From Ignavibacteriales bacterium (GTDB lineage Bacteria; Bacteroidota; Ignavibacteria; UBA10030): DNA of 64,000 bases. Position 1 is the stretch's first letter, and each line of letters opens with the position of its first letter. The notes under the pieces are model-generated. The model was not told where the DNA came from, did not search any database, and saw nothing but the letters and a program-made list of their open reading frames with translations. The stretch spans positions 248,001-312,000 of the forward strand of contig JAPLFR010000008.1 in the NCBI GenBank assembly GCA_026390575.1, in the 5' to 3' direction. Shown here in pieces: positions 5,986-37,837 of the stretch. A program made the translations under genes and the position numbers.

Positions 5986-7527
5986 ATGTTTTCCCAAATC
6001 TTGAGCGCCGCGACATTTGGAGTTGATGCCTATCTTGTCAATGTAGAAACACATCTTGATCTTGGCTCTCCAAAATTCTTTATGGTCGGGTTGCCTGATA
6101 ATGCGGTAAAAGAAAGTATCCATCGCGTCACCGCTGCGATCAAAAATTCCGATTTTAAATTTCCCAATCGGAAAATGACAGTGAACCTTGCTCCTGCCGA
6201 TGTGAAAAAGGAAGGCTCGTCGTATGATTTACCAGTAGCGCTTGGCATTCTTACTGCATCGGGTCAACTCAAATCTGAAGTACTGGATAAGTTTGTTGTG
6301 GTAGGTGAATTAGCGCTCGATGGTACATTGCGCCCGGTGCATGGGGCCTTGGTCATAGCATTGGAAGCAAGGGCGAAAGGGAAGCGCGGTATATTGCTTC
6401 CTGAAGAAAACGCGAGAGAAGCTGCAATGGTAGAAGGCATAGAAGTCTATCCTATGAGGAGTCTGCGTGAGTCGATTGAATTCTTTGCGGGAGAACATCG
6501 TTTGCTCCAGCCTTTTCACATGGATATGCACGAAGTTTTTTCTGGAGAGCAGCATTATACCGTAGATTTTGCAGATGTAAAAGGACAAGAGAGTGTGAAA
6601 CGCGCAATGGAAGTGGCAGCTGCCGGTGCGCATAACATTTTGCTCATCGGTCCGCCTGGTTCCGGAAAAACGATGCTTGCAAAACGTCTGCCGACCATTC
6701 TTCCGCCTATGACATTTGATGAAGCGTTAGAAACCACAAAGATTCATTCTGTGGCAGGAATGCTGCCGTTACATTCCGCTCTCGTTTCGGTTCGTCCTTT
6801 TAGGTCGCCACATCATACAATTTCAGATGCAGCCTTAGTAGGCGGCGGTACAATTCCGCGTCCGGGAGAAATCTCGCTCGCACACCATGGTGTCTTATTC
6901 TTAGATGAATTACCGGAATTTGCACGGAGTGTTCTTGAAGTGATGCGGCAGCCATTGGAAGACAGTCATGTGACAATCAGCCGTTCGAAAATGTCAGTAG
7001 ACTTTCCGGCGAATTTTATGTTGGTATGCGCAATGAATCCATGCCCTTGCGGCAACTATGGAAATTCCACCGCTGAATGTACATGCAATCCTGTGCAAAT
7101 ACAGAAATATGTCGGCAAGATCTCCGGACCGCTTTTAGATCGTATTGATATTCATGTGGAAGTACCGGCTGTGAAGTACAACGAATTGGCATCAAAACGG
7201 ACTGGAGAGAATTCAAGTATAATACGCAACCGCGTCATAGCGTCGCGTGCCATGCAAGCAGATAGATTCAACGGACGAAAAGGATTATTTAGTAATGCGG
7301 ATATGGATTCAAAAGAAATCAAAGAATTTTGTCAGATAGATCAAGCGGGAGCGGATCTGTTGAAGATGGCAATGAGCCGTCTGGGATTTTCTGCTCGCGC
7401 ATACGACCGCATTCTCAAAGTATCTCGTACAATTGCTGATCTTGATGGAAGCGTTGACATTCATCCTCACCATTTAAGCGAAGCAATTCAGTACCGAAGT
7501 CTCGATAGAAGTTTCTATGCAATCTAA
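5986..7527 (+). CDS. comM: ComM/YifB family AAA+ ATPase (Mg-chelatase-like)
   Basis: This 513-residue protein has the three-part ComM layout: an N-terminal Lon-protease-like domain (residues 1-170), a Mg-chelatase-type AAA+ domain with Walker A GPPGSGKT at 222-229 and Walker B LFLDELPEF, and a C-terminal Mg-chelatase domain with the cysteine-rich insert NPCPCGNYG and the RSLDR ending. ComM is known in naturally competent bacteria as a helicase promoting branch migration during transformation, but homologues are widespread. The last 21 coding bases and the 5 bases beyond are duplicated exactly at 10740-10765, beyond the next gene. Confidence 0.94.
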   Translation: MFSQILSAATFGVDAYLVNVETHLDLGSPKFFMVGLPDNAVKESIHRVTAAIKNSDFKFPNRKMTVNLAPADVKKEGSSYDLPVALGILTASGQLKSEVLDKFVVVGELALDGTLRPVHGALVIALEARAKGKRGILLPEENAREAAMVEGIEVYPMRSLRESIEFFAGEHRLLQPFHMDMHEVFSGEQHYTVDFADVKGQESVKRAMEVAAAGAHNILLIGPPGSGKTMLAKRLPTILPPMTFDEALETTKIHSVAGMLPLHSALVSVRPFRSPHHTISDAALVGGGTIPRPGEISLAHHGVLFLDELPEFARSVLEVMRQPLEDSHVTISRSKMSVDFPANFMLVCAMNPCPCGNYGNSTAECTCNPVQIQKYVGKISGPLLDRIDIHVEVPAVKYNELASKRTGENSSIIRNRVIASRAMQADRFNGRKGLFSNADMDSKEIKEFCQIDQAGADLLKMAMSRLGFSARAYDRILKVSRTIADLDGSVDIHPHHLSEAIQYRSLDRSFYAI

Positions 7528-7532
7528 CTAAT
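7507..7532 (+). repeat. 26-bp direct repeat, copy 1 (3' end of comM)
   Basis: The 26 bases beginning agaagtttct and ending tctaactaat span the last seven codons of comM (stop included) and five following bases. They recur without mismatch at 10740-10765. The two copies bracket the segment that carries the secreted hydrolase gene, as expected for an insertion that left a duplicated target or attachment-like site. Confidence 0.85.
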
Positions 7533-7640
7533 TTTGCAATTATTTTTTAATGGTGGAATGTTATATGCAGATTAAAGATAAATGCTTTTCATTGTACCAA
7601 TAAACAAGAAAACAGAAGATAAAAAAACGGAGATGTTATT

Positions 7641-10600
7641 ATGAGGAAATTCTTAGACTCGAAATTATTCCTATTTATCGCCTTGCTTTTTATCATGAAC
7701 TTTTTTGTCAATGCGCAACAATCACTTAAAAATGAAACGCGCATTCCATGGGCAGATGCTACCGGCGGGTTCATCCGGGATTGGTTAATGATCGGTGGGT
7801 TTCCAGCTCAAGGCGGAATCGATACTGATTTTCTTCAAGAACACGGTGGGGAGCTTAATATTCAACCGGTAAATGGAATGACTCATAAGCTTCAGAATGG
7901 ATCGACGATAGAATGGAAAAATTATCATTCGCCTTATAACTATATTAATTTTTTTGATGCATTGAAGGATATTAATTACAACAACATTACCGCGTATGTC
8001 TATGCAAAAGTGAATCGTCCCAAAGACGGCAAAGCAGTCCTTTCCTTTGGATGTACAGAATCTAATAAAATATGGATTAACGGAAAACTTGCATACTCTG
8101 GCAACTCCAGTGGATCAACTGCAGAAAATTACCAAATTGAAGTTGATATGCTGAAGGGGGAAAACTCAATTCTTATGAAAACGGTTCACGGAGATTGGAC
8201 ATGGGGTTTCACTTTTAGAATTATCGAACCGGAAAGTTTCTCAATCGTTCAAGATTTTAAATTAACTCCATCAATTGTAAAATCAGATGCACAGAATAAA
8301 CTGATTATTAAAACCGATAGAACTCTCAATCCCGAAATCAAAAAAAAGGATTTGCAGATTAAAATTGTTTCCGGAGGTGGGAAAATAATAACTCAGAAAA
8401 CAGTGAAGCGCGGAGAAGAATTAACTTTTAATACAAGTGATTGGCCCAACGGTGTTTTTGATGTTTGTTTTAAAAGCAACGACAGCCGCGATCAAATAAT
8501 TACCGCCTATTTGTACTGGTACAAAGGAGATGCATTAAAAGAAGCGAAAGAACTTATTTCCACTATTCCTAAAAACCCAAAATCGCAGGATGAATTGGTT
8601 CATACAATGCTTGCAGATATGATTTGGGATCGGATTGGTACTGATTTAAATAAAGTTGATTCCTCTAAAATTCTATCAATTTATTCTCCATTGTTGGAAT
8701 ATGAAGATTTAAAACTGAACAAACCCGGTAAAATAAGTAGTATTCGTCCAAATGGATTTGTTCGTCTTGCATACCGGGATGAAATTGATAATGCACCTCA
8801 GTTTTGCCGAGCATACCTGCCGATGAATTATGATCCTCAAAAGAAGTGGCCTTTAGTAATTTATCTTCATGGATATAATCCGGCAAATCCTGTCTATGTA
8901 AAATGGTGGTCGGTTGACAGCCGGCATTCAAATGTTTCGGATAAATATCCGGTAATTTATATGGAACCACTTGGAAGAGGTAATACAAGTTATTTGGGTA
9001 TCGGGGAATTGGATATATTGCGCTGTGTCGAAATGGCGAAACAGTCATTTAACGTTGATGAAGAGCGGATCTACCTCAAAGGAGAATCAATGGGCGGCGG
9101 AGGAACCTGGAATGTGGGAACGCGGCATCCGGATATTTTTGCTGCAATTGCACCGGTTTATGGTGGATGGGATTATCATGTTAATATGGATGAACAACAA
9201 CTAGCTAAACTGACGGAGCGCGAACGTTTTTATCGTGAAAGAAACAGTTCCTTTGCCCAGGCAGATGCAATGCTCACTACCCCGATTTTTGTTTTTCACG
9301 GAGATGCCGATAAATCAGTAGATGTAAAAAATTCAAGATATGTTTTAAGTATGATGCAAAGATGGGGCTATGATATCCGATATCGCGAATTTCCGGGATA
9401 CGGACACGAAGGAATCGATTTAATAAATGATCAACTTATACCATGGTTTTTGGAACACAAAATAAATGCAAATCCAAGTAAAGTACGCGTAAGATCTGCA
9501 TATTTAAAATCTGCATCTGCTCACTGGGTAAAAGTTACACAGCGTAACAATCCATTTTCTTTTATCGAAGCGGAAGCTGAAGTACTAAACAATCACACAA
9601 TCCGTCTATCAACCGAGAACGTTTTGGCGGTGGAACTTTCTCCAAAAAGTCCATTGGTTGATATTGAAAGACCTGTGAAAGTAATTTGGAATATCAGCGA
9701 TATTCGCGAAGTAAAATTGGAGAATGGAAAGATTAATTTGTGGTTTCAAAATTATAGACCAGGACAACTGAATAAAAACCCTAAAAGGGAAGGGCCTATT
9801 TCAGATGTAACCGTAACTCCTTTTGCAGTTGTGATCGGTACAATTTCGAATGATTCTCTTATGGTAAAATTGTGTAATCAGAAGGCGCAAGAATTTATTA
9901 ACGGATGGAAAGATTGGCAGAAATTTGAACCGCGTGTTTTTAAGGATACGGAGTTAACCGATGAGGATATGAAAAAGTATTCGTTAATTCTTTATGGCGG
10001 TGCTGATGCAAATCTTGTTACAAAAATATTGAGTAGTAAAATTCCACTGAAAATATCCTCCAATGAAATTGAAATTGCGGGCAAGATATTTCTAACGAAA
10101 GATGCGTGCGTGCAAATGGTTTATCCGCATCCACTAAACGCCGAAAGGTATGTGACCATCATAGGCGCTACTTCAATGGCGGGTATGTATTTATTTCAGC
10201 AACGTAATGAAGATTATGATTTCTTTATTCAAGATGGCTGTATTCCCAACGGTCGTTTGGGAAGGCCAATGAATAAGCTTTACATTGCAAGAGGAATTTT
10301 TGATTATAACTGGCTGATAAACGATAAGATAATAGATGTTGGGGATCCTGAATTAAGGAAGAATAGTCCAGTTCGAAAAGTATTGCCCGATCTTACAACG
10401 GTGATTGAAAATTTGCCACAGATTGATTTACACATCTACAAAATGCTTACCGGGAAATATGAAATCCAGCCCGGTGTGAATGTAATTATCTTTGTCGATC
10501 ATGATAAATTAATGGCAAAAGGGCCAGATGGACAACAGGTTCAACTTATCCCAGCATCTGAAACTGAATATTTTATCGATGTTTTTGATATGCAACTCGA

Positions 10601-10685
10601 TTTTAAAAGAAATAAAAATGGTATAGTTGATTCTATTACAATTCATGAAAATGATAGAGATACTGAAGCAAAGAAAATTGAGTGA
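7641..10685 (+). CDS. large secreted alpha/beta hydrolase (prolyl-oligopeptidase/esterase type)
   Basis: The protein has 1014 residues with an N-terminal signal peptide (MRKFLDSK, hydrophobic core, ending near VNAQ), so it is exported. Residues about 25-210 look like a beta-sandwich or carbohydrate-binding-like module; the middle is an alpha/beta hydrolase domain with the nucleophile motif GESMGG (Ser483), a likely acid in HGDADKSVD (Asp555 or Asp557) and the base in GYGHEG (His589). About 400 more residues follow without a recognised fold. Domains of this type act as peptidases, feruloyl/acetyl esterases or PHB-depolymerase-like enzymes; the substrate is unclear. The gene sits alone inside a segment bounded by a 26-bp direct repeat that duplicates the end of comM, suggesting later acquisition. 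Confidence 0.85.
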   Translation: MRKFLDSKLFLFIALLFIMNFFVNAQQSLKNETRIPWADATGGFIRDWLMIGGFPAQGGIDTDFLQEHGGELNIQPVNGMTHKLQNGSTIEWKNYHSPYNYINFFDALKDINYNNITAYVYAKVNRPKDGKAVLSFGCTESNKIWINGKLAYSGNSSGSTAENYQIEVDMLKGENSILMKTVHGDWTWGFTFRIIEPESFSIVQDFKLTPSIVKSDAQNKLIIKTDRTLNPEIKKKDLQIKIVSGGGKIITQKTVKRGEELTFNTSDWPNGVFDVCFKSNDSRDQIITAYLYWYKGDALKEAKELISTIPKNPKSQDELVHTMLADMIWDRIGTDLNKVDSSKILSIYSPLLEYEDLKLNKPGKISSIRPNGFVRLAYRDEIDNAPQFCRAYLPMNYDPQKKWPLVIYLHGYNPANPVYVKWWSVDSRHSNVSDKYPVIYMEPLGRGNTSYLGIGELDILRCVEMAKQSFNVDEERIYLKGESMGGGGTWNVGTRHPDIFAAIAPVYGGWDYHVNMDEQQLAKLTERERFYRERNSSFAQADAMLTTPIFVFHGDADKSVDVKNSRYVLSMMQRWGYDIRYREFPGYGHEGIDLINDQLIPWFLEHKINANPSKVRVRSAYLKSASAHWVKVTQRNNPFSFIEAEAEVLNNHTIRLSTENVLAVELSPKSPLVDIERPVKVIWNISDIREVKLENGKINLWFQNYRPGQLNKNPKREGPISDVTVTPFAVVIGTISNDSLMVKLCNQKAQEFINGWKDWQKFEPRVFKDTELTDEDMKKYSLILYGGADANLVTKILSSKIPLKISSNEIEIAGKIFLTKDACVQMVYPHPLNAERYVTIIGATSMAGMYLFQQRNEDYDFFIQDGCIPNGRLGRPMNKLYIARGIFDYNWLINDKIIDVGDPELRKNSPVRKVLPDLTTVIENLPQIDLHIYKMLTGKYEIQPGVNVIIFVDHDKLMAKGPDGQQVQLIPASETEYFIDVFDMQLDFKRNKNGIVDSITIHENDRDTEAKKIE

Positions 10686-10739
10686 TAAATAATTATTAAC
10701 TGCGCGGCTTTTTATGGATTACAGAATACTTTTGGCTAA

Positions 10740-10765
10740 AGAAGTTTCTATGCAATCTAACTAAT
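10740..10765 (+). repeat. 26-bp direct repeat, copy 2
   Basis: Exact second copy of the sequence at 7507-7532. Here it is non-coding, 27 bp before the start of the small secreted protein gene. It resembles the empty-site sequence left on the far side of an inserted segment. Confidence 0.85.
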
Positions 10766-10791: not shown

Positions 10792-11199
10792 ATGAAGAAA
10801 TCACTTATTACAATGCTTGCTGTTTTCATTGTCAGCGGATTCGCGCTGGCACAACAAAATGGAAAACAAATCACAGTTGTTGGCGAAGTTGTTGAATCTC
10901 AATGTTACATCACTGGTTTGAATGGACCGGGCAAAGGACTTTCGCACAAAGAATGTGCCCTCAAGTGCGCCAAAGGAGGAATTCCGTTAAGCATTCTCGA
11001 AGATAAAACAGGAACACTCTATTTAACGGGGCAATCGAAAAAGGCGATGGCTGGGACGAGCGAATTATTGATCCCATTTGTTGCTGAGAAAGTCAAAGTT
11101 ACCGGTCGGCTGTTTGAAAAAGGCGGAATGAAAATGCTGCTCATCAGTAAAGTGGATAAGATAGGTGAAGAGAATAAGAAGCAGGAAGAAAAGAAATAA
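10792..11199 (+). CDS. small secreted Cys/His protein of unknown function
   Basis: This 135-residue protein has a clear signal peptide (MKKSLITMLAVFIVSGFALA, cleavage near AQQ) and an AGGA ribosome-binding site 8 bp before ATG. The mature part is one compact OB-like beta domain with Cys38, His52, Cys55 and Cys59 (ESQCYIT and SHKECALKCAKGG), suited to binding a metal or forming a disulfide. The C-terminus is Lys/Glu-rich. Similar short periplasmic proteins are common in this bacterial group but have no assigned role. A strong terminator follows at 11235. Confidence 0.8.
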   Translation: MKKSLITMLAVFIVSGFALAQQNGKQITVVGEVVESQCYITGLNGPGKGLSHKECALKCAKGGIPLSILEDKTGTLYLTGQSKKAMAGTSELLIPFVAEKVKVTGRLFEKGGMKMLLISKVDKIGEENKKQEEKK

Positions 11200-11262: not shown

Positions 11263-11271
11263 TTTGTAAGC

Positions 11272-11320
11272 AAGTGACCGTCACTTTCTACGTTTGAGCT
11301 CAGTGAAGTGACGGTCACTT
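11272..11320. repeat. GTGACCGTCAC-type inverted repeat (copy a)
   Basis: A perfect 15-bp inverted repeat, AAGTGACCGTCACTT (11272-11286) and AAGTGACGGTCACTT (11306-11320), separated by 19 bases. Each arm is itself nearly palindromic. The same design with the same loop length recurs at 15697-15745, and related versions occur between 31.7 and 34.7 kb. It ends 54 bp before the dusB start. Confidence 0.85.
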
Positions 11321-11374
11321 TTCATTTCATTGTAACTGCTTCATGGTTTTTGTATATTTGACCAAGTGATATTT

Positions 11375-12385
11375 ATGCGTATCGGCACAATTGACATAGA
11401 AAAACCATTGCTTCTGGCACCCATGGAAGACGTGACAGATCAGGCGTTTCGCATCGTCTGCAAACGTCTTGGCGCGGATATCGTATTTACGGAATTCGTC
11501 AACTCTGAAGGACTTGTCCGCAATTCATTAAAGACAAAAAAGAAAATGGATTTTCGTGAAGAAGAACGTCCGTTTGGAATTCAAATTTATGGCGGTGAAG
11601 AGCCTTCTATGGAAGGCGCAGCGAGCATTGCTGAAAGCCTTCATCCTAATATCATAGACATCAACTGTGGATGCTGGGTGCGTAATGTTGTTGGATGCGG
11701 CGCTGGTTCCGGACTCTTGCGCGATATTCCCAAAATGGAACGTATCATCTCAGCTGTTATAAAGACCGTCAAATTGCCGGTGACTGTAAAAACTCGTCTC
11801 GGTTGGGATGCCGAATCAATTAAGATCGTTGAGATTGCTCGGATGGTTGAACAGACCGGTGCAGCAGCACTCACGATTCATTGCCGAACACGATCTCAAG
11901 CACACAAGGGTGATGCGGATTTTTCCTGGATTCCGAAAGTGAAGTCGGCCGTTTCAATCCCAATTATTGCGAATGGTTCGCTCGATACACCACAGAAGAT
12001 CGTTCAGGCATTTCAGGAGACAGGTTGCGATGGAGTGATGATTGGGCGCGGCGCTATTGAGAATCCATGGATATATCAGCAGACAAAACATTTCCTCACT
12101 ACAAATACACTTCTTCCGGCTCCAACAGTTGAAGAGCGATTCCGTGTTCTGATCGAACATCTCAAACTTTCAACTGAATGTAAAGGTGAGCGGAAGGGTG
12201 TCATTGAATTCCGAAAACACTACAGTGGTTACCTTAAAGGATTATACGGTGCATCAAAGGTGCGGCAGGAGATGATGCAGTATTTCGATCTGGAACCAGC
12301 AGTGCAGCGATTATTCCAATATAAGGAATATCTTCTCGCATACGCCGCTGTACAAACGAATTCGGGTACTATGGAAGCAGCTTGA
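11375..12385 (+). CDS. dusB: tRNA-dihydrouridine synthase, DusB type
   Basis: FMN-dependent enzyme reducing uridines in tRNA D-loops. The TIM-barrel start LLLAPMEDVTDQAFR is typical of DusB, followed by TEFVNSEGL, the catalytic Cys region DINCGCW, PVTVKTRLGW, HCRTRSQ and DGVMIGRGAIENPW. The usual Pro after the catalytic Cys (GCP) is Trp here. I chose the ATG at 11375, where family similarity begins; an in-frame GTG at 11366 would add three residues. The stop codon is directly adjacent to the polX start codon, so translation is probably coupled. Confidence 0.94.
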   Translation: MRIGTIDIEKPLLLAPMEDVTDQAFRIVCKRLGADIVFTEFVNSEGLVRNSLKTKKKMDFREEERPFGIQIYGGEEPSMEGAASIAESLHPNIIDINCGCWVRNVVGCGAGSGLLRDIPKMERIISAVIKTVKLPVTVKTRLGWDAESIKIVEIARMVEQTGAAALTIHCRTRSQAHKGDADFSWIPKVKSAVSIPIIANGSLDTPQKIVQAFQETGCDGVMIGRGAIENPWIYQQTKHFLTTNTLLPAPTVEERFRVLIEHLKLSTECKGERKGVIEFRKHYSGYLKGLYGASKVRQEMMQYFDLEPAVQRLFQYKEYLLAYAAVQTNSGTMEAA

Positions 12386-15078: not shown

Positions 15079-15702
15079 ATGAAAGCAAGAACAAATATAC
15101 TAATTGCACGCCTTAAAAAAGAATTTCCACAAGCTCGAACAGCTCTGGAATATTCTAATCCGCTGCAGCTGCTCATTTCTACTATTTTGTCGGCACAATG
15201 CACAGATGTTCGTGTTAATATAATTACTCCGGCTCTCTTTGCTAAATATCGCTCAGTAAATGATTTTGCAAAAGCTGATAGAAGTGAATTAGAGACGGAA
15301 ATTAAATCGACAGGCTTTTATCGGATGAAAGCAAAACATATTATTGATGCGAGTAATGCAATTATTGAACAATTTGGAGGTCAAGTTCCTAAGACGATGG
15401 ATGAGATACTATCTCTTCCCGGAGTAGGAAGGAAGACAGCAAATTGTGTTCTTGGCGGCGCATATGGCATTCAAAGCGGAATTGTAGTCGATACACATGT
15501 TATTCGATTAGCAAATCGACTTGGTTTAACAAAAAATGATGCTCCAGAAAAAATTGAACAAGACTTGATGAAACTTATACCAAAGAGAGAATGGTACCGG
15601 TTCAGCAATTTACTCATTCTCCATGGTCGTAAGACATGTAAAGCAAGAAAACCACTGTGCGAAAGATGCGTTCTCTCTAACATTTGTCCATCGAGTAAGT
15701 GA
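15079..15702 (+). CDS. nth: endonuclease III (DNA glycosylase/AP lyase)
   Basis: Base-excision-repair enzyme removing oxidised pyrimidines and cutting at AP sites. The 207-residue protein has the helix-hairpin-helix LPGVGRKTAN with the catalytic Lys, the catalytic Asp in VVDTHVIRLANRLG, and the C-terminal 4Fe-4S site spaced C-x6-C-x2-C-x5-C (CKARKPLCERCVLSNIC). I chose the ATG at 15079; a TTG lies one codon earlier. The stop codon TGA lies inside the first arm of a palindromic repeat (15697-15711), so the repeat sets the C-terminus of the protein. Confidence 0.95.
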   Translation: MKARTNILIARLKKEFPQARTALEYSNPLQLLISTILSAQCTDVRVNIITPALFAKYRSVNDFAKADRSELETEIKSTGFYRMKAKHIIDASNAIIEQFGGQVPKTMDEILSLPGVGRKTANCVLGGAYGIQSGIVVDTHVIRLANRLGLTKNDAPEKIEQDLMKLIPKREWYRFSNLLILHGRKTCKARKPLCERCVLSNICPSSK

Positions 15703-15745
15703 CCGTCACTTACAATTGATCAGCTATGTAAAGTGATGGTCATTT
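15697..15745. repeat. GTGACCGTCAC-type inverted repeat (copy b), overlaps nth stop
   Basis: Arms AAGTGACCGTCACTT (15697-15711) and AAGTGATGGTCATTT (15731-15745), two mismatches between them, with a 19-base loop. The size and loop length match the copy at 11272. The TGA inside the first arm (15700-15702) is the nth stop codon. Confidence 0.8.
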
Positions 15746-15767
15746 TGCACTAATTAAAGGAAACCAA

Positions 15768-16419: not shown

Positions 16420-17856
<1,437 letters not shown>

Positions 17857-21258: not shown

Positions 21259-21626
21259 GGGGGTGAAATGGCTTCGACGGGGACGAGGAAGCTTAAGACG
21301 GCGTGCCGTGGTCACCGTGTCCACGATAAAAAGCGGTAAACTATAAGTGCAAATTACGATTACGCACTGGCTGCCTAATATAATTAGGTGACCCGTTCAC
21401 TCTGGTATTTCCCACGATGCTTGGGCTGAACGTCGACTAAAGTGGGATAGTTCTTTTTCGTACTCAAGGAGAGAGAGCGAATCCGTTGAAAAACGGATCA
21501 CTTGAGCTGGTGCGAGGTAAATCCTGCCTGCTGGAGTTCCCTTGCACGAGATTCAAAAACAGGATACGCGCGTAGAAGTTTTAGGAGTCTTCTCTTCGGA
21601 CCGGGGTTCGACTCCCCGCACCTCCA
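21259..21626 (+). ncRNA. ssrA: transfer-messenger RNA (tmRNA)
   Basis: One-piece tmRNA that rescues stalled ribosomes and tags the unfinished peptide. The 5' end GGGGGTGAAATGGCTTCGACG pairs with the 3' end CACCTCC, and the 3' T-arm sequence GGTTCGACTCC is present. The tag reading frame is GCA AAT TAC GAT TAC GCA CTG GCT GCC TAA at 21349-21378, giving encoded tag ANYDYALAA with the usual hydrophobic ALAA degradation signal. CCA is apparently not fully encoded. SmpB is not in the window. Confidence 0.96.
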
Positions 21627-21754
21627 CAATATTTACACCTAATATTAACGAACCCTCCATAATATATTTCCAATTCACTGATTAGAGTGATGTATGAATA
21701 AAACAATTGAATATAATGAAACCACAATGATAAACCGTTTTATAAACAGTTTGG

Positions 21755-29391: not shown

Positions 29392-29706
29392 TGGCTAAGA
29401 TCGTTGTAGCTGATTTGTTGTAGTGTTCAGCCCATATTTTTTGACCACCCCTAAAAAATCTTTATCTTTTTATTTTCATTTGTCATTCCACCGTATTTCT
29501 GTAGAATCCGGTCACTGACCGGATCACTCATCCACAATTGTCCGATGTGATCATCGCCTGCCTGCCGCAGGCAGGGACTCTACTACTGACCTCGGCTGAT
29601 TTCAAAACCGCGAACATCCGCCAAACACCGCTTAGGGTAAACCGGTCGCATCTCTTCCTACCGCATCTCCCTCGGATGTTCAGAAAAAACGAGATAAAAA
29701 AAATGG
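29392..29706. other. intergenic region with palindromic repeat
   Basis: 315 bp with no supported gene. It contains a two-hairpin repeat of the TGTAGAATCC family (29500-29583) and a second palindrome CCTGCCTGCCGCAGGCAGG at 29558-29576. The rest is unremarkable. Confidence 0.6.
29500..29583. repeat. TGTAGAATCC two-hairpin repeat, copy A
   Basis: First hairpin has arms CCGGTCA/TGACCGG (29508-29522). The second half begins GTCCGATGTGATCATCG but is interrupted by the palindrome CCTGCCTGCCGCAGGCAGG before the closing GGACTCTAC-like end. Matches copies at 30801 and 30969. Confidence 0.75.
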
Positions 29707-30015
29707 CTAGTACCTAGAACGGTTTCCACCGCCGCCAGAACTGCCGCGTCCACGGCCGCCAGGCTTTCGGTCGGTCATCGGGCGAGCTTCGTTTACCACA
29801 ATTTTACGTCCTTTGAGCTCTTTATCATTCAATCCGGCAATAGCTGCCTCTGCTTCCGCTTGTACCGGCATCTCCACAAATCCGAATCCCTTCGCTGTTC
29901 CAGTAAATTTGTCTTTTATGAGAGCAACAGAATCGACAGCCCCAAATGCTGCAAATTCCTTTTTTAATTCGTCTTCCGAAATATCGCGTGACAGATTACC
30001 GACATACATTTTCAT
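29707..30015 (-). CDS. RNA-binding protein with RRM domain and Gly-rich tail
   Basis: A 102-residue protein. One RNA-recognition motif covers residues 1-80, with RNP2 MYVGNLS and RNP1 KGFGFVEM, followed by a Gly/Arg/Ser-rich tail (GGRGRGSSGGGGNRSRY). Such single-RRM proteins in bacteria are often cold-induced RNA chaperones. A strong AAAGGAG site precedes the ATG. The repeat-rich spacers on each side suggest its own promoter. Confidence 0.93.
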   Translation of the reverse strand: MKMYVGNLSRDISEDELKKEFAAFGAVDSVALIKDKFTGTAKGFGFVEMPVQAEAEAAIAGLNDKELKGRKIVVNEARPMTDRKPGGRGRGSSGGGGNRSRY

Positions 30016-30228
30016 GATGTTTCTCCTTTGAGCAATTTGTTATTATGCACTGTTGTTTATTTCGCGACGTATACAAGTGATTTTCTCTAGGGTGTTATTT
30101 TGAGTTTTTATCTGGCAGGGTCCATTGAATATTTTTATAGCCTTTGGAGTATCTCTCTACACACAGGGTACGACAAATTTTCATCACTTCCAACACCACA
30201 ATAGTGTCTTAGAAGAATAAACGCGCTA

Positions 30229-30774
30229 TTACTGCACCCACAACTCATCCGGAAAATCAAAGGAAGAAGAAGCGCCGTTACGTGTAACTTTGACTTCCAC
30301 CTTCATAATTTTTACCGGATCATAAAATAGTTCGTAGATATTTTGATTCTCTATGATCCTGACCTTATCATTATTTATTTCCACTTTCGTATCAGGGGAG
30401 GCTTCAAGTATTAAATTGCCGACTTTGCCTTCCAAAAAAGATTTTGAATTTACAGCAACTGCAAACGGTTCGTCATTCTTCAATGCTATGCTGTACGCAA
30501 CCATTGCATCAACATCGATACTATCAGGATTTAAGTCGGCTTTATGGTACATCATTCCTTCGATCTCATGTCTAAGTGCTTCGTCTTCCATGTTTTTAAG
30601 TCGTACACCATAGATTTCCCTCGCATACCCATGACATTTAGCACAACTACTCTTAAAAGTCCAAACGGGAGGAAACGAAATATCTGAAATTACCTTCACT
30701 CGTGATTTTTTATAAAAACAAGAATTAACCGACATGACCAATATCAAAGAGGCAAGAAATAAAATCTTTTTCAT
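30229..30774 (-). CDS. c-type haem lipoprotein, unknown role
   Basis: A 181-residue protein with a lipoprotein signal (hydrophobic stretch then VNSC, Cys19) and one haem c motif CAKCH near residue 45. The haem region is followed by LRHEIEGMMYH, where a Met or His could be the second haem ligand. The C-terminal half is beta-rich, without cysteines. Likely a periplasmic, membrane-anchored mono-haem cytochrome; the redox partner is unknown and no haem-lyase or oxidase gene is adjacent. Confidence 0.75.
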   Translation of the reverse strand: MKKILFLASLILVMSVNSCFYKKSRVKVISDISFPPVWTFKSSCAKCHGYAREIYGVRLKNMEDEALRHEIEGMMYHKADLNPDSIDVDAMVAYSIALKNDEPFAVAVNSKSFLEGKVGNLILEASPDTKVEINNDKVRIIENQNIYELFYDPVKIMKVEVKVTRNGASSSFDFPDELWVQ

Positions 30775-30800
30775 TAATTATTCTTATTTATCTTTTTATT

Positions 30801-30865
30801 TGTAGAATCCGGTCAATGACCGGATCATTCACTTCTTTCCGTCCGATGTGATCATCGGACTCTAC
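30801..30865. repeat. TGTAGAATCC two-hairpin repeat, copy B
   Basis: Most complete copy. Hairpin one has arms ATCCGGTCA/TGACCGGAT (30808-30826). Hairpin two has arms GTCCGATG/CATCGGAC around TGAT (30841-30860). The whole is bounded by TGTAGA and TCTAC, which also pair, making a nested, nearly symmetric element of 65 bp. Confidence 0.8.
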
Positions 30866-30968
30866 GCTCTCCTCTACACAATCTTTCTCTCTTCCTTTTA
30901 TCTGTTATTCCAGAATATTTCTGTAACCGACGTCGATCAGCGATCGCGGCTACAATGCTTATTTTATT

Positions 30969-31035
30969 TGTAGAATCCGATCACAGGTCGGATCGTTCTC
31001 CCTTTAACGCCCGGTGTGATTATCGCCCGCCCGCT
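30969..31035. repeat. TGTAGAATCC two-hairpin repeat, copy C
   Basis: Diverged copy: TGTAGAATCCGATCACAGG then TCGGATCG, followed by GCCCGGTGTGATTATCGCC. The order and spacing match copy B, but the second hairpin is degraded. Confidence 0.65.
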
Positions 31036-31180
31036 ATGTGCATTAATTTAGTGGAAATACTTTTAAGAATGTAGCCAAACCTCGCTTTGTTTGCAACGGC
31101 TTTTACAGCCCCACAACAAAACAGGCGATGTGTTGCCACACCACTCGTGCAATTAAAGTACGAAACCGACAATCTCTCAA

Positions 31181-31213
31181 ACCTCTCCGATCGCTTTAAG
31201 CGGTCGGAGAGGT
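31181..31213. repeat. 33-nt hairpin repeat, copy 1
   Basis: ACCTCTCCGATCGCTT pairs with AAGCGGTCGGAGAGGT with one wobble pair. A second copy differing at two bases lies at 34608-34640. Confidence 0.8.
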
Positions 31214-31251
31214 AAAACATCATTGGTCGGAGACAGTCACAGTCATTTAAC

Positions 31252-31593
31252 TCAAACCTCGTTATATTTTTTCGCTGATCCTTTTGATTTCTTGATTGGA
31301 TAACGTTTTTTGTTTTTCTCGATTTTGGAATTGATTATCTTCGCCACATCCAGATTTGCCTCATGTGCCAAAAGAAGCGAATAGGTAAGCACATCTGCCA
31401 ATTCTTCGGCGAGTCGCTTTTTATCATATTCATCGTGGTGTTTCCAAAGAAAAAGCTCATTCAGTTCTGAGGCTTCTATTGATATTGCAAGCGCAAGATC
31501 TTTGGGATTGTGAAACTGTTTCCAGTTCCTTTGATCGCGGAACTTGATAATAGTCTTTGTCAATTTTGATATAATATCATTTTTAGATTTCAT
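31252..31593 (-). CDS. MazG-like nucleotide pyrophosphohydrolase
   Basis: A 113-residue all-alpha NTP-PPase. The metal-binding pattern is ISIEASELNELFLW (E-x-x-E) followed by EELADVLTYSLLLA (E-x-x-D), as in small MazG-like or RS21-C6-type enzymes that hydrolyse non-canonical or excess (d)NTPs to NMP and pyrophosphate. A single catalytic domain, basic C-terminal tail (KKSKGSAKKY). An AAGGAAG site precedes the ATG. Confidence 0.88.
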   Translation of the reverse strand: MKSKNDIISKLTKTIIKFRDQRNWKQFHNPKDLALAISIEASELNELFLWKHHDEYDKKRLAEELADVLTYSLLLAHEANLDVAKIINSKIEKNKKRYPIKKSKGSAKKYNEV

Positions 31594-31897
31594 GAATGGC
31601 TTCCTTTTGTTTGAATACCAATATTAGTAACTACGTAACGATTTAAGGTGAGAACATAAATACTTCTTCTCCTATCAACAATGTAGCCATACCTCTTCTT
31701 GTTTACAATGGAGTTAAAATCCTCGTTAGTATGTGACCGTCACCCGACCGATCTTTTATGATAGGTCACGGTCACATCTATCCAAATAAAAAAGGGCGCA
31801 TAGCGATGCACCCCTATGATATTACTTGGCGTAATTATACGGTACTACCGGCAATGTTTGAATTTCCTATGAGTCTGCCAACGTTGGATATAATTGA
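31594..31897. other. intergenic region with composite repeat
   Basis: 304 bp without a supported gene. It contains a composite palindromic repeat (31731-31822) and, at about 31679-31720, a sequence (atgtagccatacctc, then tgtttacaatgg) resembling 31069-31105, suggesting older diverged repeats. The small frame at 31758-31958 is only a translation of repeat sequence. Confidence 0.6.
31731..31822. repeat. composite palindromic repeat (copy c)
   Basis: Arms ATGTGACCGTCAC (31731-31743) and GTCACGGTCACAT (31765-31777), one mismatch, 21-base loop. They are followed by an A-rich linker and GGGCGCATAGCGATGCACCCC (31794-31814), itself a hairpin, then TATGATAT. The module order matches 32681 and 34395. 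Confidence 0.8.
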
Positions 31898-32620
31898 TCA
31901 GATTTTCTTTTCGCGGTTCATACAATCAGGTCCCTCGTGCTGTGAATTGCTCACATAAGTCGAGACCGGATAAGCATCCATTTTAGCTGCCGAATAGGGC
32001 TTCAATAGTGTTTTAAGCTTCGCGATATCGTTGTAATCACGATCCAACCATTGATCGAATTGTTTTTCAGAAAGTATGACAGGCATGCGGGTGTGAATGT
32101 CTTCTATGAGCTTATTAGGTTCTGTCGTAAGAATGGTGAAACTTGGAAATTTCTCTCCCTTCTCGTTCTTCCAGACAGAGAACAACCCGGCAAACATAAA
32201 TGTTTTTTCATCCTTCATACGGATACACATCGGCTGCTTTGACAAGATTTTTTTTGTCTTCCCATTTACCTCTATAACGGTAGTCATTTTCTGCCATTCA
32301 TAAAAAGCATCTGCGGGGACGAGGCACCGGCTCGATTTAAAATATGGAGCAAAGAGCTTGCTCTGATCTAAAGTCTCTGATTTGGCATTGAATGTCGATG
32401 CCTGTATTTTCCCGTCTTTTGACCAATGAGGGATAAGCCACCACTGCATTTTTCTTATGACGATATTTCCATTTTGAATTGCTAATACCGGCATCTGCTG
32501 CATGGGTGATGCATTGTATCGAGGAAGATCGTCTAATGCATCTTTTCTGTTGCCAAGGATGTCTCGCCCGACAAGCTCAAAGACCATTTTGCCATTTATG
32601 AAAGCATATCTGCCGCACAT
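31898..32620 (-). CDS. SRAP domain protein (HMCES/YedK family)
   Basis: Enzyme that shields abasic sites in single-stranded DNA by forming a covalent link through its N-terminal Cys2. The start is fixed by this chemistry: Met-Cys-Gly-Arg-Tyr begins at 32620 with an AAGGAAA site upstream; the longer frame adds 17 non-family residues. Further motifs are PRYNASPMQQMPV, WWLIPHWS, FNAKSETL, RCLVPADAFYEW and HTRMPVIL, containing the catalytic Asn, Glu and His of the family. 240 residues. Confidence 0.93.
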   Translation of the reverse strand: MCGRYAFINGKMVFELVGRDILGNRKDALDDLPRYNASPMQQMPVLAIQNGNIVIRKMQWWLIPHWSKDGKIQASTFNAKSETLDQSKLFAPYFKSSRCLVPADAFYEWQKMTTVIEVNGKTKKILSKQPMCIRMKDEKTFMFAGLFSVWKNEKGEKFPSFTILTTEPNKLIEDIHTRMPVILSEKQFDQWLDRDYNDIAKLKTLLKPYSAAKMDAYPVSTYVSNSQHEGPDCMNREKKI

Positions 32621-32680
32621 AAAGATTTCCTTAGGATGTTTTCGATATAATAATAATAATTTTGAAAACAAAAATCCTGC

Positions 32681-32772
32681 ATGTGACCGTCACCTGCCCC
32701 GCTTTTTCATGATAGGTGACGGTCACACCCTTCCGAATAAAAAAAAAGGCAAACGTGTTGTGCCCCTACGAT
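32681..32772. repeat. composite palindromic repeat (copy d)
   Basis: Arms ATGTGACCGTCACCT (32681-32695) and AGGTGACGGTCACAC (32714-32728), then CCTTCCGAATAAAAAA, then a hairpin-like GGCAAACGTGTTGTGCCCC (32748-32766) and TACGATATTA. Closest in layout to 34395-34484. Confidence 0.82.
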
Positions 32773-32785
32773 ATTACCTTCATGG

Positions 32786-32842
32786 TTGGTGACGGTTACA
32801 CTCAATTAAATAAAAAGGGCGCATAGCGATACGCCCCTGCAT
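32786..32842. repeat. half composite repeat (copy e)
   Basis: One arm only, GGTGACGGTTACAC, followed by the linker and the second module GGGCGCATAGCGATACGCCCC (32817-32837). It directly follows copy d, so two repeats lie almost in tandem in the 224-bp spacer. Confidence 0.7.
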
Positions 32843-32844
32843 AT

Positions 32845-33483
32845 TCAATCTTTTCCTTTGCTCAGGCTTTGAATGGCCGTAATTGCAAGCAGAATTATAT
32901 CTTTGGATAGTACTATCATCAGCACAACAATCATTAATAAAACAAAACTAAAATTTAAATCGAATTGAAATTGCAGTTGCTGAAATTTCCAAACGTGGTT
33001 TTCTTTAACCATAACTCCTGATAGTCGCAATGGTAGGATTAAGAACCTGCATAAATCAAACTTTACAAAACCTATTGTGGAGAACCAGGCCACATCTTTG
33101 AAGGTCGAGATGTTTGCGTTATCTACAAGGAAACGGCAATCTCCCCAGGAAGCCCAATCACTGCGAATGACCCTGGCAGCTTCATTGTAACCACTAAATA
33201 TCTCATTGGGCATTGTCGCAAGAATAACAATGTTTTGCTGAGAAAATAATCGTTTCATAAAATATTCTACCTGAGATGTGTCACGCTTAACATACCCCGC
33301 TTGTAACATTTGTAATTGTTGGATGATTTCTGACCTTATTTCCTGAGGGGCATTTCCTTTGGAGAAAACAAAAGAATCTTTGGAATTATAAGTTTCTTTA
33401 TGCGGAATTTTGAACACACTGACAAGTAAATAAAGTAATAGGAAATTCAATAAGATCATGAGAATACGTTTTACAAATTTCAT
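32845..33483 (-). CDS. membrane protein with NTF2/SnoaL-like domain
   Basis: A 212-residue protein. The N-terminus is a hydrophobic helix (MKFVKRILMILLNFLLLYLL), the middle (residues about 45-165) reads like an NTF2-like alpha+beta barrel (SEIIQQLQMLQAGYVKRDTSQVEYFMKRL; ASWGDCRFLVDNANISTF; ENHVWKFQQLQFQFD), and a second hydrophobic helix closes the chain. The start at 33483 has AAAGGA upstream; 31 further in-frame codons reach into repeat sequence and are unlikely. Function unknown; the SnoaL assignment is tentative. Confidence 0.62.
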   Translation of the reverse strand: MKFVKRILMILLNFLLLYLLVSVFKIPHKETYNSKDSFVFSKGNAPQEIRSEIIQQLQMLQAGYVKRDTSQVEYFMKRLFSQQNIVILATMPNEIFSGYNEAARVIRSDWASWGDCRFLVDNANISTFKDVAWFSTIGFVKFDLCRFLILPLRLSGVMVKENHVWKFQQLQFQFDLNFSFVLLMIVVLMIVLSKDIILLAITAIQSLSKGKD

Positions 33484-33688
33484 CTCAAATCCTTTCATTT
33501 TATCCTGATTAATTTGCTGGTGCAAATTTAAACTACTTCTCCAAACCACAACCTCACCCGCGCCTACCGCAAGCATATCTCGCGTGCGGCGGGCAGGCTA
33601 CCCCTTCCCTGTGGAGGAGGAAAAAGGGAGGGATTTGTTTTACTTCGCCAGTACTGAATTGGAACACTTGGGAATCATGGACTTGCAG

Positions 33689-34237
33689 TTAATTCACGTA
33701 CATCCACAGCCGTGAGTCTTTTTTGAAATCACGGATATAGAGCACACCTCCTTGTTCAAGTGCAGATTCGATTTTTTCCATGTCGTCGTCTAAATCTATT
33801 GATCCGATCATCGCGAATAACATGGCTAATGATTGTATTGATTTTACACGCAATTTGGAAACTGTCGGCTCCTCTCCGTTATCCGAGTTTTCAATGATGA
33901 GACGATTGTTCCTTTCTGAACTTTCTTTCATTTTCTGATCAAACTTTCCACTATATACCTTCGTCTCGCCGTTTTCGGTGCTGTCCTTTATTCGTACAAC
34001 TGAACCACTTTTATATGCCTGAATGAGTGTTCTATATTTTAATTTCACGCCGTTAATGTTGAAATCTCCATCCATATCAGCGAGGAGCTTTGCTAGGGGA
34101 AGCGAAATGCCGATCTTCTGTAGTTCTGTACCATTGTTTGATTTGACGATCCAAATACATTTTGTTTGAGCCGCAGCCTGATTGGTTATTGCAACCATAA
34201 GCAGGATACTCATAAGTATGAGAATTATTTGTTTCAC
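33689..34237 (-). CDS. secreted protein of unknown function
   Basis: A 182-residue protein with a signal peptide (MKQIILILMSILLMVAITNQAAAQ). It starts at GTG with an excellent AAGGAGG site. The mature part is acidic and has no cysteine pair, repeat or recognised motif. Phrases such as GISLPLAKLLADMDGDFNINGVKL and a later SLAMLFAMIGSIDLDDDMEKIE look like two copies of a similar helix-turn pattern, perhaps an internal duplication. I do not recognise the family. Confidence 0.7.
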   Translation of the reverse strand: MKQIILILMSILLMVAITNQAAAQTKCIWIVKSNNGTELQKIGISLPLAKLLADMDGDFNINGVKLKYRTLIQAYKSGSVVRIKDSTENGETKVYSGKFDQKMKESSERNNRLIIENSDNGEEPTVSKLRVKSIQSLAMLFAMIGSIDLDDDMEKIESALEQGGVLYIRDFKKDSRLWMYVN

Positions 34238-34394
34238 GAAGACGCCTCCTTAATTAAATTTCTTCATTTTTATTGGATTCACCGAAGAATTCACATCAAG
34301 CTTACGAAGCGGATAAGAGGAAAGTTTCAACGCCGATTTTGAACGTATTGAAGGGACGTTCAATTGAAAGTCCCTACGTATGAATCTATTAAGC

Positions 34395-34484
34395 ATGTAA
34401 CCGTCACTTGCCGGCTTTTTTATGAAAGGTGACGATCACACCCTTCCGAATAAAAAAGGGCACAACGTGTCGTGCCCCTACGAT
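34395..34484. repeat. composite palindromic repeat (copy f)
   Basis: Arms ATGTAACCGTCACTT (34395-34409) and AGGTGACGATCACAC (34428-34442), the linker CCTTCCGAATAAAAAA, and the hairpin GGGCACAACGTGTCGTGCCCC (34458-34478) followed by TACGAT. Confidence 0.82.
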
Positions 34485-34607
34485 AGTATCTCGTTTACTT
34501 TGTTGGTGTTTTCTGTTGCGTCAGTGTCTGCGATAGAATCGTCCCTATGTTTGAATCCGGCTTACTTTGCTGGTACAAATTTAAACCACCACCTCTGCGC
34601 TAATCAA

Positions 34608-34640
34608 ACCTCTCCGATCGCTTTGAGCGTTCGGAGAGGT
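34608..34640. repeat. 33-nt hairpin repeat, copy 2
   Basis: Same sequence as 31181-31213 apart from two substitutions in the distal arm, flanked in both places by AA and TAA. Not near a T tract, so unlikely to be a terminator. Confidence 0.8.
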
Positions 34641-34650
34641 AATGTGTCAT

Positions 34651-34714
34651 AGATCGGTCACGGTCATACTTACCTAATTAATTAAAAAGAGCGCATAGCG
34701 ATGCGTCTCTACGT
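34651..34714. repeat. half composite repeat (copy g)
   Basis: One arm ATCGGTCACGGTCATAC, an A-rich linker and the second module GAGCGCATAGCGATGCGTCTC (34689-34709), then TACG. Ends 12 bp before the metal permease stop codon. Confidence 0.7.
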
Positions 34715-34725
34715 TATTAACTTGC

Positions 34726-35496
34726 TTATTTTGCCGGCACTTCCTCTTGTTCCTTCTTTTTTCTCACCGGAAATAAAATCGATACGCTCAACGCCAGCAA
34801 TGCGTGAAAAAACACAAGCGTATATCCTGTTGGCAGATCCAGATTGTAGGAAACGAGAATCGATATTAAATTAACTCCCGTTCCGATGATCCATGCAGTG
34901 AGAAGCAATTTCCCTTTATTGATCCTCAGTGCTATATATGCAGGCGCAACAAGGAGCGAAAAGACAATAAGCACTCCAGCCAAGCGCACAGAACTGGTCA
35001 CCGTCGCTGCAAACGATACAAAGAAGAGCGCATCTTTCCAGAATCCTTTCATGCGTGGATAGACAAAGACGAGCAGCAGACCGAGCAAGGTATAAATGAC
35101 CGCCGTTTCGATAATATCCGACCATGGCGTAAAGAGAATATCAGATGCCATCAGCTTATCGAACATCTCCATTCCGTGCGCCGACTTGGAAAGGATAATA
35201 AACACGCCCGAAATTCCAAATGCGTACAGGAGTCCAATGAATGCTTCGTGCGAGAGGGTTCGCTTGGATGCGATTGCAATGGCAAGTCCAGCAAGTAAAG
35301 CAAAAGCAAGTGAAAGCGGATAGATATAGAGACCATCGAAGAAAAGAATGGAAAGCGCCGCTCCAAATGCCGACATCTGCCCTATTGCAAGGTCCGTAAA
35401 AATAATTCCTCGCCTGATGATTTCCAGTCCGAAGAAGGAATGAATGCCGAGCAGTACGACAGAAAGAATGAATGCGGAAAGAAGAATATCAGCCAT
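34726..35496 (-). CDS. metal ABC transporter permease (ZnuB type)
   Basis: A 256-residue inner-membrane protein of the ABC-3 family that moves Zn2+ or Mn2+ across the membrane. About eight hydrophobic helices; the family segment GIIFTDLAIGQMSAFGAALS near the N-terminus and SVRLAGVLIVFSLLVAPAYIAL in the C-terminal half are typical. It overlaps the end of the substrate-binding-protein gene by 8 bp. No cognate ATPase gene follows, which is unusual for this type of operon. Confidence 0.9.
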   Translation of the reverse strand: MADILLSAFILSVVLLGIHSFFGLEIIRRGIIFTDLAIGQMSAFGAALSILFFDGLYIYPLSLAFALLAGLAIAIASKRTLSHEAFIGLLYAFGISGVFIILSKSAHGMEMFDKLMASDILFTPWSDIIETAVIYTLLGLLLVFVYPRMKGFWKDALFFVSFAATVTSSVRLAGVLIVFSLLVAPAYIALRINKGKLLLTAWIIGTGVNLISILVSYNLDLPTGYTLVFFHALLALSVSILFPVRKKKEQEEVPAK

Positions 35497-36391
35497 TGGT
35501 CAGTCTCCTTACGATCTCGTTGAATACATTGAACACATTATCGGCTTCTTTTACTGCGCCGACATCATGCGGCATAACAATAAGTTTTACGTTAAGCCGT
35601 TTCGATAAATACGTAGAGGCATCCTGCGGATTGTACACATCCTGCAGTATAAACTTCACCTGTTCCCTCTGAATCAATTTCTCGACATCGGCAATGTGTT
35701 TTGTTGTAGGCGGAATTCCAGGAAGCGGCTCAATGGTGCCGACAATCGTAAACCCGAACCGGTGCAGGAAGTAATCGAAGATTCTGTGATATTCAAGAAT
35801 TTTTTCTCCTTTGAACGGTTTCAATTTCTCTTCCCACGTTTTCATGTTTTGCTGCCAGAGTGCGTACAATTCTTTATTATTCGCTTCGTAAAACGCTTGA
35901 TTATCCGGATCGAGTTCGCTGAGTCTTTCAGTGATGGACTTTGCTATGACTGGGATATTATCGGGATCGAGGAAATAATGCGGATTGCCTTCAGGATGTA
36001 CATCGCCGAGCTCACGGGAAACGCTCGTCGGCACATCGATCAGATGCACATGCATCGAAAGATCGAGAAATCCCCTCTCACCCGGTTGCACGGCCCCGTT
36101 GCTCGCCTGCTTAATAATTTGCGGCAGCCAGCCAATTTCTAACTGTCCCCCATTAATGATAAGAAGATCGGCCCTTCGCAATTTGGCAATGAAGGACGGT
36201 TTGGGAATAATCACATGTGGGTTATAATCTCCCCTTGCAAGAGAGATGACCTCAACACGATCCTTGCCGATGCGCTGAACGATGTCGCTGATGTACCCGT
36301 AGGTTGTGACAACCTGCAGCTGACCCGTGAATGCTGTTTGCACACACAGCAGTAAGAGCAGCAACAGCGGAATTATTTTCGATACTTTCAT
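35489..36391 (-). CDS. metal ABC transporter substrate-binding protein (ZnuA type)
   Basis: Cluster-9 binding protein with a signal peptide (MKVSKIIPLLLLLLLCVQTAFTG). Likely metal ligands are in the family positions: DYNPHVIIP, GNPHYFLDP, EYHRIFDYFLHRFG and the late NPQDAS/MPHDVGA. The His-rich loop of classical ZnuA is absent, so Zn2+ and Mn2+ are both possible. I chose the ATG at 36391, preceded by GGAG; the frame also has an ATG four codons earlier. It sits between the outer-membrane porin and the permease genes. Confidence 0.9.
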   Translation of the reverse strand: MKVSKIIPLLLLLLLCVQTAFTGQLQVVTTYGYISDIVQRIGKDRVEVISLARGDYNPHVIIPKPSFIAKLRRADLLIINGGQLEIGWLPQIIKQASNGAVQPGERGFLDLSMHVHLIDVPTSVSRELGDVHPEGNPHYFLDPDNIPVIAKSITERLSELDPDNQAFYEANNKELYALWQQNMKTWEEKLKPFKGEKILEYHRIFDYFLHRFGFTIVGTIEPLPGIPPTTKHIADVEKLIQREQVKFILQDVYNPQDASTYLSKRLNVKLIVMPHDVGAVKEADNVFNVFNEIVRRLTNG

Positions 36392-36426
36392 ACGATTCTC
36401 CATGATGAGACGTGAATTTATTTTCT

Positions 36427-37707
36427 TTAGAATGCATGGGCGCCATGAGCGCCTATTGTCAAATTAGCTTGTAAAATAACTTGTGTATACGGCTGCTGCG
36501 ACCATCCTCCAGAGTACTGCACATAACGACTCAAATCTCTATCGATTTGAAGACGAAGCCGAGAGAATTCCGTAGGGCTGTATTCGATCATTGCAGAATA
36601 ACGCGGAAGATTTGATGGCATGTGTTGGTCCGCTCCAGCGAGTGAGACATCGTTCTGCATCAGCAGATCATACCGCACACCAACTCTCCATAACTGATCC
36701 AGCTTTGCTACAACCTGTGCATAAAAACCGGAATGATACTTATCAAGGCTTGATGACGAGACGGCATTCAAAGAATCGCGCACATATTCCGTTCCATTCA
36801 TCACGCGATACATATATTCACTCTGAAAAGAAAGATAACGGATAGCGTCGAGAGAATATTTCACGGTGAGGTCACCGCCGACAATATCGGTGTTCGCATT
36901 GACAGCTTCTCCTGCACCTCCTGAAGAAGAAAAGTCCTGATCGGTCCTTGTCGTCCCTATCGCATTGGAGATGCCGAATAAGATTGAGGCATCATCAATA
37001 TCGAATGACGAACGGATATATCCAATAAAAAGATTCGGCCCCTGCGCAGCATCGATAGCAACGCTGCTTTTCGGATCGCTGAAACCTGCGGTACCGAAGC
37101 TCTGTTCGTTTGCTCCGTTCAACACCTCTACACCAAGCACGAGATAAAATGATGTCGGTGCAACCCAGGTTGCCTGGGCACCGATTTCTTTCAATCCATC
37201 CTCGCCGAATAATGCCGTGGCTACAAGCGGCCGGTTGGCAAAATCCCAGTAATGCTCATGCTGCTCGTTGATCCTCCCGAAGCTTGCAAGAAATTTTCCC
37301 GCCTTTAACTGAAAGCCGTACGGAAGCTTACGCGTCGTGAAATATGCTTCTTCAAGGCCAGCGCCGTCCGGCGAAAGGCCAATGACTGCAAAGAGATCGA
37401 AATACGGATCTACAACAGAATACAGCGACATCTCGCCATAATTGAAATTCATACCGCGATGCGCATTTAAACCGGAAGAAACCGTTTGGTTCAGAAACGG
37501 ATAGCTCAAGCCGGGAATTGTTAAAGAGAAATATTTTTGATCAGCAATATTACGCGCAACGCCGGAGACATCGAGAATAAATGCGATATCGGGAACAAAT
37601 TTGGACTGATCGAAGGCAGATCCTTCTCTCGACTGAGCCCGGAGCGATCCGAACAGCGCCAGAATTAAAAGAATTACTGTCGAAGTATTTAATTTATTCA
37701 ACTTCAT
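36427..37707 (-). CDS. outer-membrane beta-barrel protein, probable metal-uptake porin
   Basis: A 426-residue protein with a signal peptide, alternating hydrophobic strands (GYEMSLYSVVDPYF-like; AYFTTRKLPYGFQLKAGKF) and a final Phe, the signal for outer-membrane barrel insertion. The HEHYWDF and GAHGAHAF (C-terminal) segments add histidines. It reads as a porin of the phosphate-selective or OprO-like kind. Directly upstream of the substrate-binding-protein gene (35 bp), it probably lets the same metal through the outer membrane; that link is inferred from position. Confidence 0.82.
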   Translation of the reverse strand: MKLNKLNTSTVILLILALFGSLRAQSREGSAFDQSKFVPDIAFILDVSGVARNIADQKYFSLTIPGLSYPFLNQTVSSGLNAHRGMNFNYGEMSLYSVVDPYFDLFAVIGLSPDGAGLEEAYFTTRKLPYGFQLKAGKFLASFGRINEQHEHYWDFANRPLVATALFGEDGLKEIGAQATWVAPTSFYLVLGVEVLNGANEQSFGTAGFSDPKSSVAIDAAQGPNLFIGYIRSSFDIDDASILFGISNAIGTTRTDQDFSSSGGAGEAVNANTDIVGGDLTVKYSLDAIRYLSFQSEYMYRVMNGTEYVRDSLNAVSSSSLDKYHSGFYAQVVAKLDQLWRVGVRYDLLMQNDVSLAGADQHMPSNLPRYSAMIEYSPTEFSRLRLQIDRDLSRYVQYSGGWSQQPYTQVILQANLTIGAHGAHAF

Positions 37708-37837
37708 ATAAACTCCTCACTTTTATGACACTACAAACAACAACAAAAGTACTGCTGGATATGGTACGACAACAAAGGAAACAACATCCACCGCATTTTA
37801 ATGCAGCAATGGATGCAGCTATTTTTTTAATATTGGA

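Follow-up and report, generated by a model that had tools for sequence, protein, structure and literature searches.

The window, by which we mean the whole 64,000-nucleotide stretch of DNA analysed, contains an insertion of about 3.2 kb directly behind an intact comM gene. That this is a one-gene insertion is well supported. We put the probability at roughly one half that it arose by comM-anchored displacement, the reading that explains it best, in which comM would have been rebuilt by homologous recombination while its old tail was pushed downstream behind the new cargo. On this reading the insertion is young relative to the genus and lies at a hot spot for gene capture that the 3' end of comM forms.

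The anchor gene comM (5986..7527, plus strand) has an intact ORF for a YifB-type Mg-chelatase-like AAA ATPase of 513 aa, which scored 650.6 bits against TIGR00368 (cut-off 362.4). An exact repeat search found 26 bp of its end twice on the plus strand, at 7507..7532 and 10740..10765. The two copies are identical at 26/26 bp and lie 3,233 bp apart, which is also the length of the insertion including one repeat copy. The left copy is the present comM end plus 5 bp past the stop codon, where the identity ends; the scar begins at comM nt 1522. An earlier, sequence-only reading of this DNA had reported these copies, and we found them exactly where it placed them. Its description of them as the last seven codons of comM plus 5 bp was correct, with the small correction that the seven include the stop codon. 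That reading had also held that a repeat present many times elsewhere would count against it; we found no third site in the window or in the 3.82-Mb genome with up to three mismatches. When the comM end (its last 60 nt plus 20) was compared with its 16-kb downstream region, the longest exact match was 26 bp, against a maximum of 15 bp in 500 first-order Markov resamples of that region.

Between the copies lies the inserted segment (7533..10739, plus strand), whose single large coding-strand ORF (7641..10685, plus strand) encodes a secreted alpha/beta-hydrolase-like protein of 1014 aa. Pfam placed it as Peptidase_S9/esterase-like with DUF3471 near the C-terminus, and NCBIfam matches fell below cut-off. 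This agrees with the earlier claim that the segment carries the hydrolase alone, and its ORFs include no integrase. The right joint shows microhomology of 1 bp at most. A direct repeat of the comM 3' end at both borders, together with an intact host gene, is the layout of a 3'-end island.

The right copy is the older one. It is followed by a gene for a small secreted protein of 135 aa (10792..11199, plus strand), whose homologue stands directly behind comM in three relatives from other genera of the family (G011, G012 and G024). The inserted segment is absent between the two genes in all three. The distance from the comM stop codon to the small secreted gene is 158 nt in G012, 33 nt in G024 and 34 nt in G011, and that from the stop codon of the right copy in the window is 31 nt. 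Because this spacing matches those in G024 and G011, the right copy is what remains of the end that comM originally had. The order of comM followed by the small secreted gene, proposed earlier as ancestral, is thus present in relatives, and in the window the old anchor 3' end has been displaced downstream together with its original neighbour, a feature of the displacement model.

The far border of the variable interval, placed by synteny, is a tRNA-dihydrouridine synthase-like gene (11366..12385, plus strand), which we take to be dus by recognition rather than by family search. No match to the hydrolase was found between comM and dus in 12 out of 12 relatives with both genes on the compared stretch (G002, G003, G005, G006, G008, G010, G011, G012, G015, G016, G017 and G024); none of these intervals therefore holds the hydrolase in the same place without the repeat, an arrangement that would have told against the sequence-only reading. 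The comM-dus interval of G001 contains a 2.8-kb run of N. The small secreted protein had no match in the five congeners G001 to G005, so the empty site is not readable within the genus; its putative form is taken from the sequences of the other genera.

Scars of this kind recur behind comM across the order. For every comM we searched up to 16 kb of the DNA behind it for copies of the gene and counted same-strand matches that reached the comM end at E<=1e-5. Such scars, with cargo in between, were present at 9 out of 59 comM loci, compared with 3 out of 335 control ORFs, drawn from the remaining ORFs of the loci that were 250 aa or longer; one of the three is an ORF antisense to the G062 scar. 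The difference gave a Fisher p of 3.3e-6, and 5.1e-6 (8/58 vs 2/335) after removal of that ORF and of G000, the genome of the window, with the loci in neither case phylogenetically independent. These counts support the earlier suggestion that the comM end is a capture hot spot, within the order. The remaining 50 out of 59 loci showed no scar at this threshold, and many of their contigs end early. We left out of the nine G041 (an internal comM fragment), G052 (E 0.003), G069 (E 0.001), three loci with less than 1 kb downstream and one just above 1 kb. G001 was counted from the scar comparison and was not run as comM in the control test, where the stretch cut the gene. Six opposite-strand comM matches were found, all weak (E 0.002-0.006), and no 5'-end duplications came up. 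Beyond the order, same-strand scars occurred at 2 out of 77 comM loci (L228 and L285), these being the loci with at least 1 kb downstream among the 80 kept; the matches at L294 are opposite-strand copies of flank. Of the named comM genes among those 80 loci, the one nearest to ours comes from an Ignavibacteriae MAG, at 71% identity, which makes it probable that the order falls in that group.

The nine scarred loci differ widely in the tract repeated. Besides the 26 bp at 100% identity in the window, there are single scars in G005 (103 bp, 69%, weak at E 2e-6), G008 (485 bp, 99%), G010 (511 bp, 78%), G038 (66 bp, 83%), G062 (188 bp, 88%) and G066 (110 bp, 75%), and three scars each in G001, of the same genus as the window, and G050 (74%, 93% and 91%). 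The tract in relatives spans 55-110, 188 or 485-511 bp, and both scar lengths and 5' limits change from genome to genome, so no common core is visible. In G001, about 420 bp of 3' flank is common to two scars (90% identity), and the second scar is followed by a homologue (60%) of the gene that adjoins comM in G005, as comM-anchored displacement predicts. Composite scars were seen in L213 (G001), L214 (G050) and L228, with comM nt ~1120-1260 fused to ~1445-1545 and the middle missing; in the G001 composites the frame is kept in one and lost in the other.

Under comM-anchored displacement, the incoming DNA would consist of an intact comM end plus cargo. Its left side would recombine homologously with the resident comM, and its right side would be joined illegitimately, with no homology, just inside the old comM end. 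The outcome would be a whole comM, a gained cargo gene and an old tail pushed downstream, and repeated rounds with scar decay could build arrays. The apparent first step in some relatives is the splitting of comM, near codon 350, by a large-serine-recombinase island, which would leave a comM 3' fragment beside an HTH gene. Against G004, the G000 comM keeps a similar identity throughout (83-93% in blocks of 103 bp), and we accordingly rejected a mosaic comM; none was apparent against five congeners and G012, and a conspecific donor would leave no trace. Identity past the stop codon, taken with the lack of a mosaic against congeners, fits a donor of the same species. We favour displacement because of the variable scar limits, the shared G001 flank and the G005-like gene behind the G001 scar. 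At its roughly even probability we prefer it to a 3'-end integrase (doubtful), a decayed island (unlikely) and a one-off capture (more unlikely again).

The best-surviving rival, possible but doubtful, is site-specific integration of an island or cassette into the 3' end of comM. Such a cis-mobilizable element would have used a tyrosine recombinase that acted in trans or has been lost, and its circle would have carried a 26-bp core that restored the comM end. The perfect repeat and the intact comM are what this account expects, since an exact 26 bp is what an integrase core gives and is a typical length for 3'-end integration cores, and the genome has four Phage_integrase matches elsewhere. 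Against it, the segment lacks an integrase, repeat lengths and 5' limits differ between genomes, and the same 26-bp core was not seen with other cargo in the relatives examined, all of them non-conspecific. The sequence-only reading had likened the event to integration at a fixed gene 3' end; this part found no support, given the varying tract, the lack of a common core and the fact that the one clearly site-specific system at comM makes its cut near codon 350 rather than at the stop. The ssrA islands of Dehalococcoides are laid out likewise: cargo stands in tandem behind a single gene, with a short direct repeat of its 3' end as bounds; the repeat is 20 bp and 15 out of 31 islands have no integration genes (PMC3146451). 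As described there, however, the 20-bp repeat of those islands is fixed and a serine recombinase lies at attL, whereas here the repeat is variable and no recombinase stands beside the intact comM.

That site-specific system is evident in five relatives (G014, G033, G040, G048 and G055), where comM is broken after about residue 355 and adjoins a serine recombinase of ~499 aa. Three of the five recombinases were scanned with Pfam, and all three contained Resolvase and Recombinase domains. The island junctions align at comM codons ~350-352, the element arms, read by eye, resemble an inverted repeat, and a single contig of G033 carries both comM halves, separated by 69 kb. The displaced comM 3' piece often has as its neighbour an HTH/XRE ORF that is oriented away from it. 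A protein search across the order (98 genomes) also returned many extra comM C-terminal pieces starting at residue ~349. In G008, G010 and G050, comM is whole, the scars start at the same ~350 site and the HTH/XRE ORF is retained; at the first G001 scar, all that is left of the HTH gene is an adjoining C-terminal remnant (tblastn 1.9e-8; HMM 4.9e-4). The shared start and the kept or remnant HTH ORF indicate that part of the scars derive from such islands, with comM later whole again.

Mg-chelatase/comM genes are frequent targets of large serine recombinases (PMC10083194, PMC9203015) and of 12.4% of predicted site-specific integrases (PMC10083194), and in phage WO the sr1 recombinase splits this gene, with HTH_XRE genes at its 3' end (PMC10083194, PMC9203015). 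The islands of the five relatives look like those in these reports. Unlike the published islands as described there, which interrupt comM, the window has an intact comM, and no serine recombinase was found in its genome.

The window insertion could be a decayed island of this type, one that lost its recombinase, had comM repaired from an intact allele and kept a 3' fragment eroded to 26 bp. The recombinase ORFs abutting truncated comM, the crossover near codon 350 with its inverted-repeat-like arms, and the eroded scars with an HTH remnant in the congener G001 lend this some weight. We nevertheless consider it unlikely, because erosion to the exact stop-codon end with zero substitutions in 26 bp needs fast deletion and because G000 has no such remnant. 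Downstream of its comM, an HTH remnant was sought and rejected (no HMM match; the only tblastn match had E 0.84). The G000 genome gave no Resolvase match, and we found neither a serine recombinase beside comM, unlike in the five relatives, nor a comM 3' fragment from ~codon 350 beside an HTH gene. With no HTH gene, Resolvase or comM sequence beyond 26 bp, the link of the window to serine-recombinase islands is indirect.

Two sets of loci add observations on comM fragments. In L112 (G008) and L155 (G016), the sequence at the left junction of the comM fragment resembles comM itself (GCCATGAACCCCTG / GCAATGAACCCCTG) and not the element arm that other genomes have; the fragment in G008, although 99% identical to comM, differs in its last 10 nt. 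The comM-like junction and these differences suggest gene conversion. In L151 and L166 (G055), comM 3' pieces are stacked with cargo between them, in a genome that also has the serine recombinase in comM; G055 has six comM 3' matches in all, four of them on contig C2.

A one-off capture at a staggered break or by template switching, which duplicated 26 bp and had nothing to do with a hot spot, would account for a single exact repeat and for a joint whose microhomology does not exceed 1 bp; it is quite improbable at a locus where 8 out of 58 other comM loci bear 3'-end scars. An Xer/pdif-type module, with XerCD sites flanking a gene, is scarcely credible: pdif modules have 28-bp sites and no recombinase of their own, which suits the repeat length and the recombinase-free segment, but the repeat is comM coding sequence, and a general dif consensus, which may not be that of the host, had no genome match at three mismatches.

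The spread of the hydrolase is patchy. Close, near-full-length homologues occurred in 4 out of 60 relatives, with identities of 56% (G002), 44% (G004), 44% (G012) and 37% over 1000 positions (G050, a match in two pieces); G052 had a match of 24% over residues 14-898, and domain-level matches were common (52 out of 61 genomes). The patchy spread suits a mobile cargo, as does the contrast within G004, where the hydrolase is 44% but ComM 94% identical. The earlier proposal to look for deviant composition gave a mostly negative result: GC content was the third lowest of 39 genes, in its favour, but codon use was ordinary (rank 32 out of 39, with 1 the most deviant). We therefore rejected a foreign composition, and a distant donor is not indicated. 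Shared flanks were likewise rejected, since the DNA flanking the homologues from G002, G004 and G012 resembled the insert ends only in 11-bp chance matches. In G050, from another family of the order, the homologue (G050:C91 148731-151559, L111) is on the same strand as comM, 17 kb further downstream and past three comM scars.

Arrays in the type VI secretion system of Vibrio cholerae offer a parallel for comM-anchored displacement. For these effector/immunity arrays, homology-facilitated illegitimate recombination has been proposed, and they share with our loci a conserved upstream anchor, new cargo placed after it, and old 3' ends or genes that remain (PMC5361080). Unlike the arrays as described there, our loci are anchored at comM, carry cargo that has no relation to the anchor, and include scars that go down to 26 bp. 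The components of the process are thus already known, and we found no description of comM 3'-end scar arrays in the open-licence PMC literature searched. Short 3'-end scars without an integrase are easily overlooked.

Acinetobacter AbaR-type islands transpose into comM with a short target duplication; they likewise bring foreign cargo to comM but, unlike the window, are not known to have a 3'-end repeat. The product of comM is a branch-migration helicase that acts in natural transformation. Should comM tails indeed mark displaced junctions, they would provide an order-wide, dated record of gene capture at one locus and would tie that capture to comM. The gene would then have a second role besides that of serine-recombinase target, as a site that islands enter and quit, depositing cargo, while comM itself is repaired. 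More speculatively, and in our view doubtfully, the comM 3' end in this order might be an integron-like loading dock without a dedicated integrase, at which cargo could be gained, stacked and swapped behind a comM that is repaired every time and whose own tail is the recombination anchor. If true, the transformation-helicase gene would double as an entry point for incoming DNA.

The window has other repeats and genes of note. Imperfect, often palindromic intergenic repeat families occupy 29493-38432, 11269-11324 and 15694-15749, for example around GTGACCGTCAC and AAAAAGGGCGCATAGCGATGC. A tmRNA gene with the tag ANYDYALAA lies at 21259-21627. A 155-nt repeat with 72% identity occurs at 16979-17133 and 40624-40778, each copy inside a long minus-strand ORF, and the pair probably represents paralogous genes.
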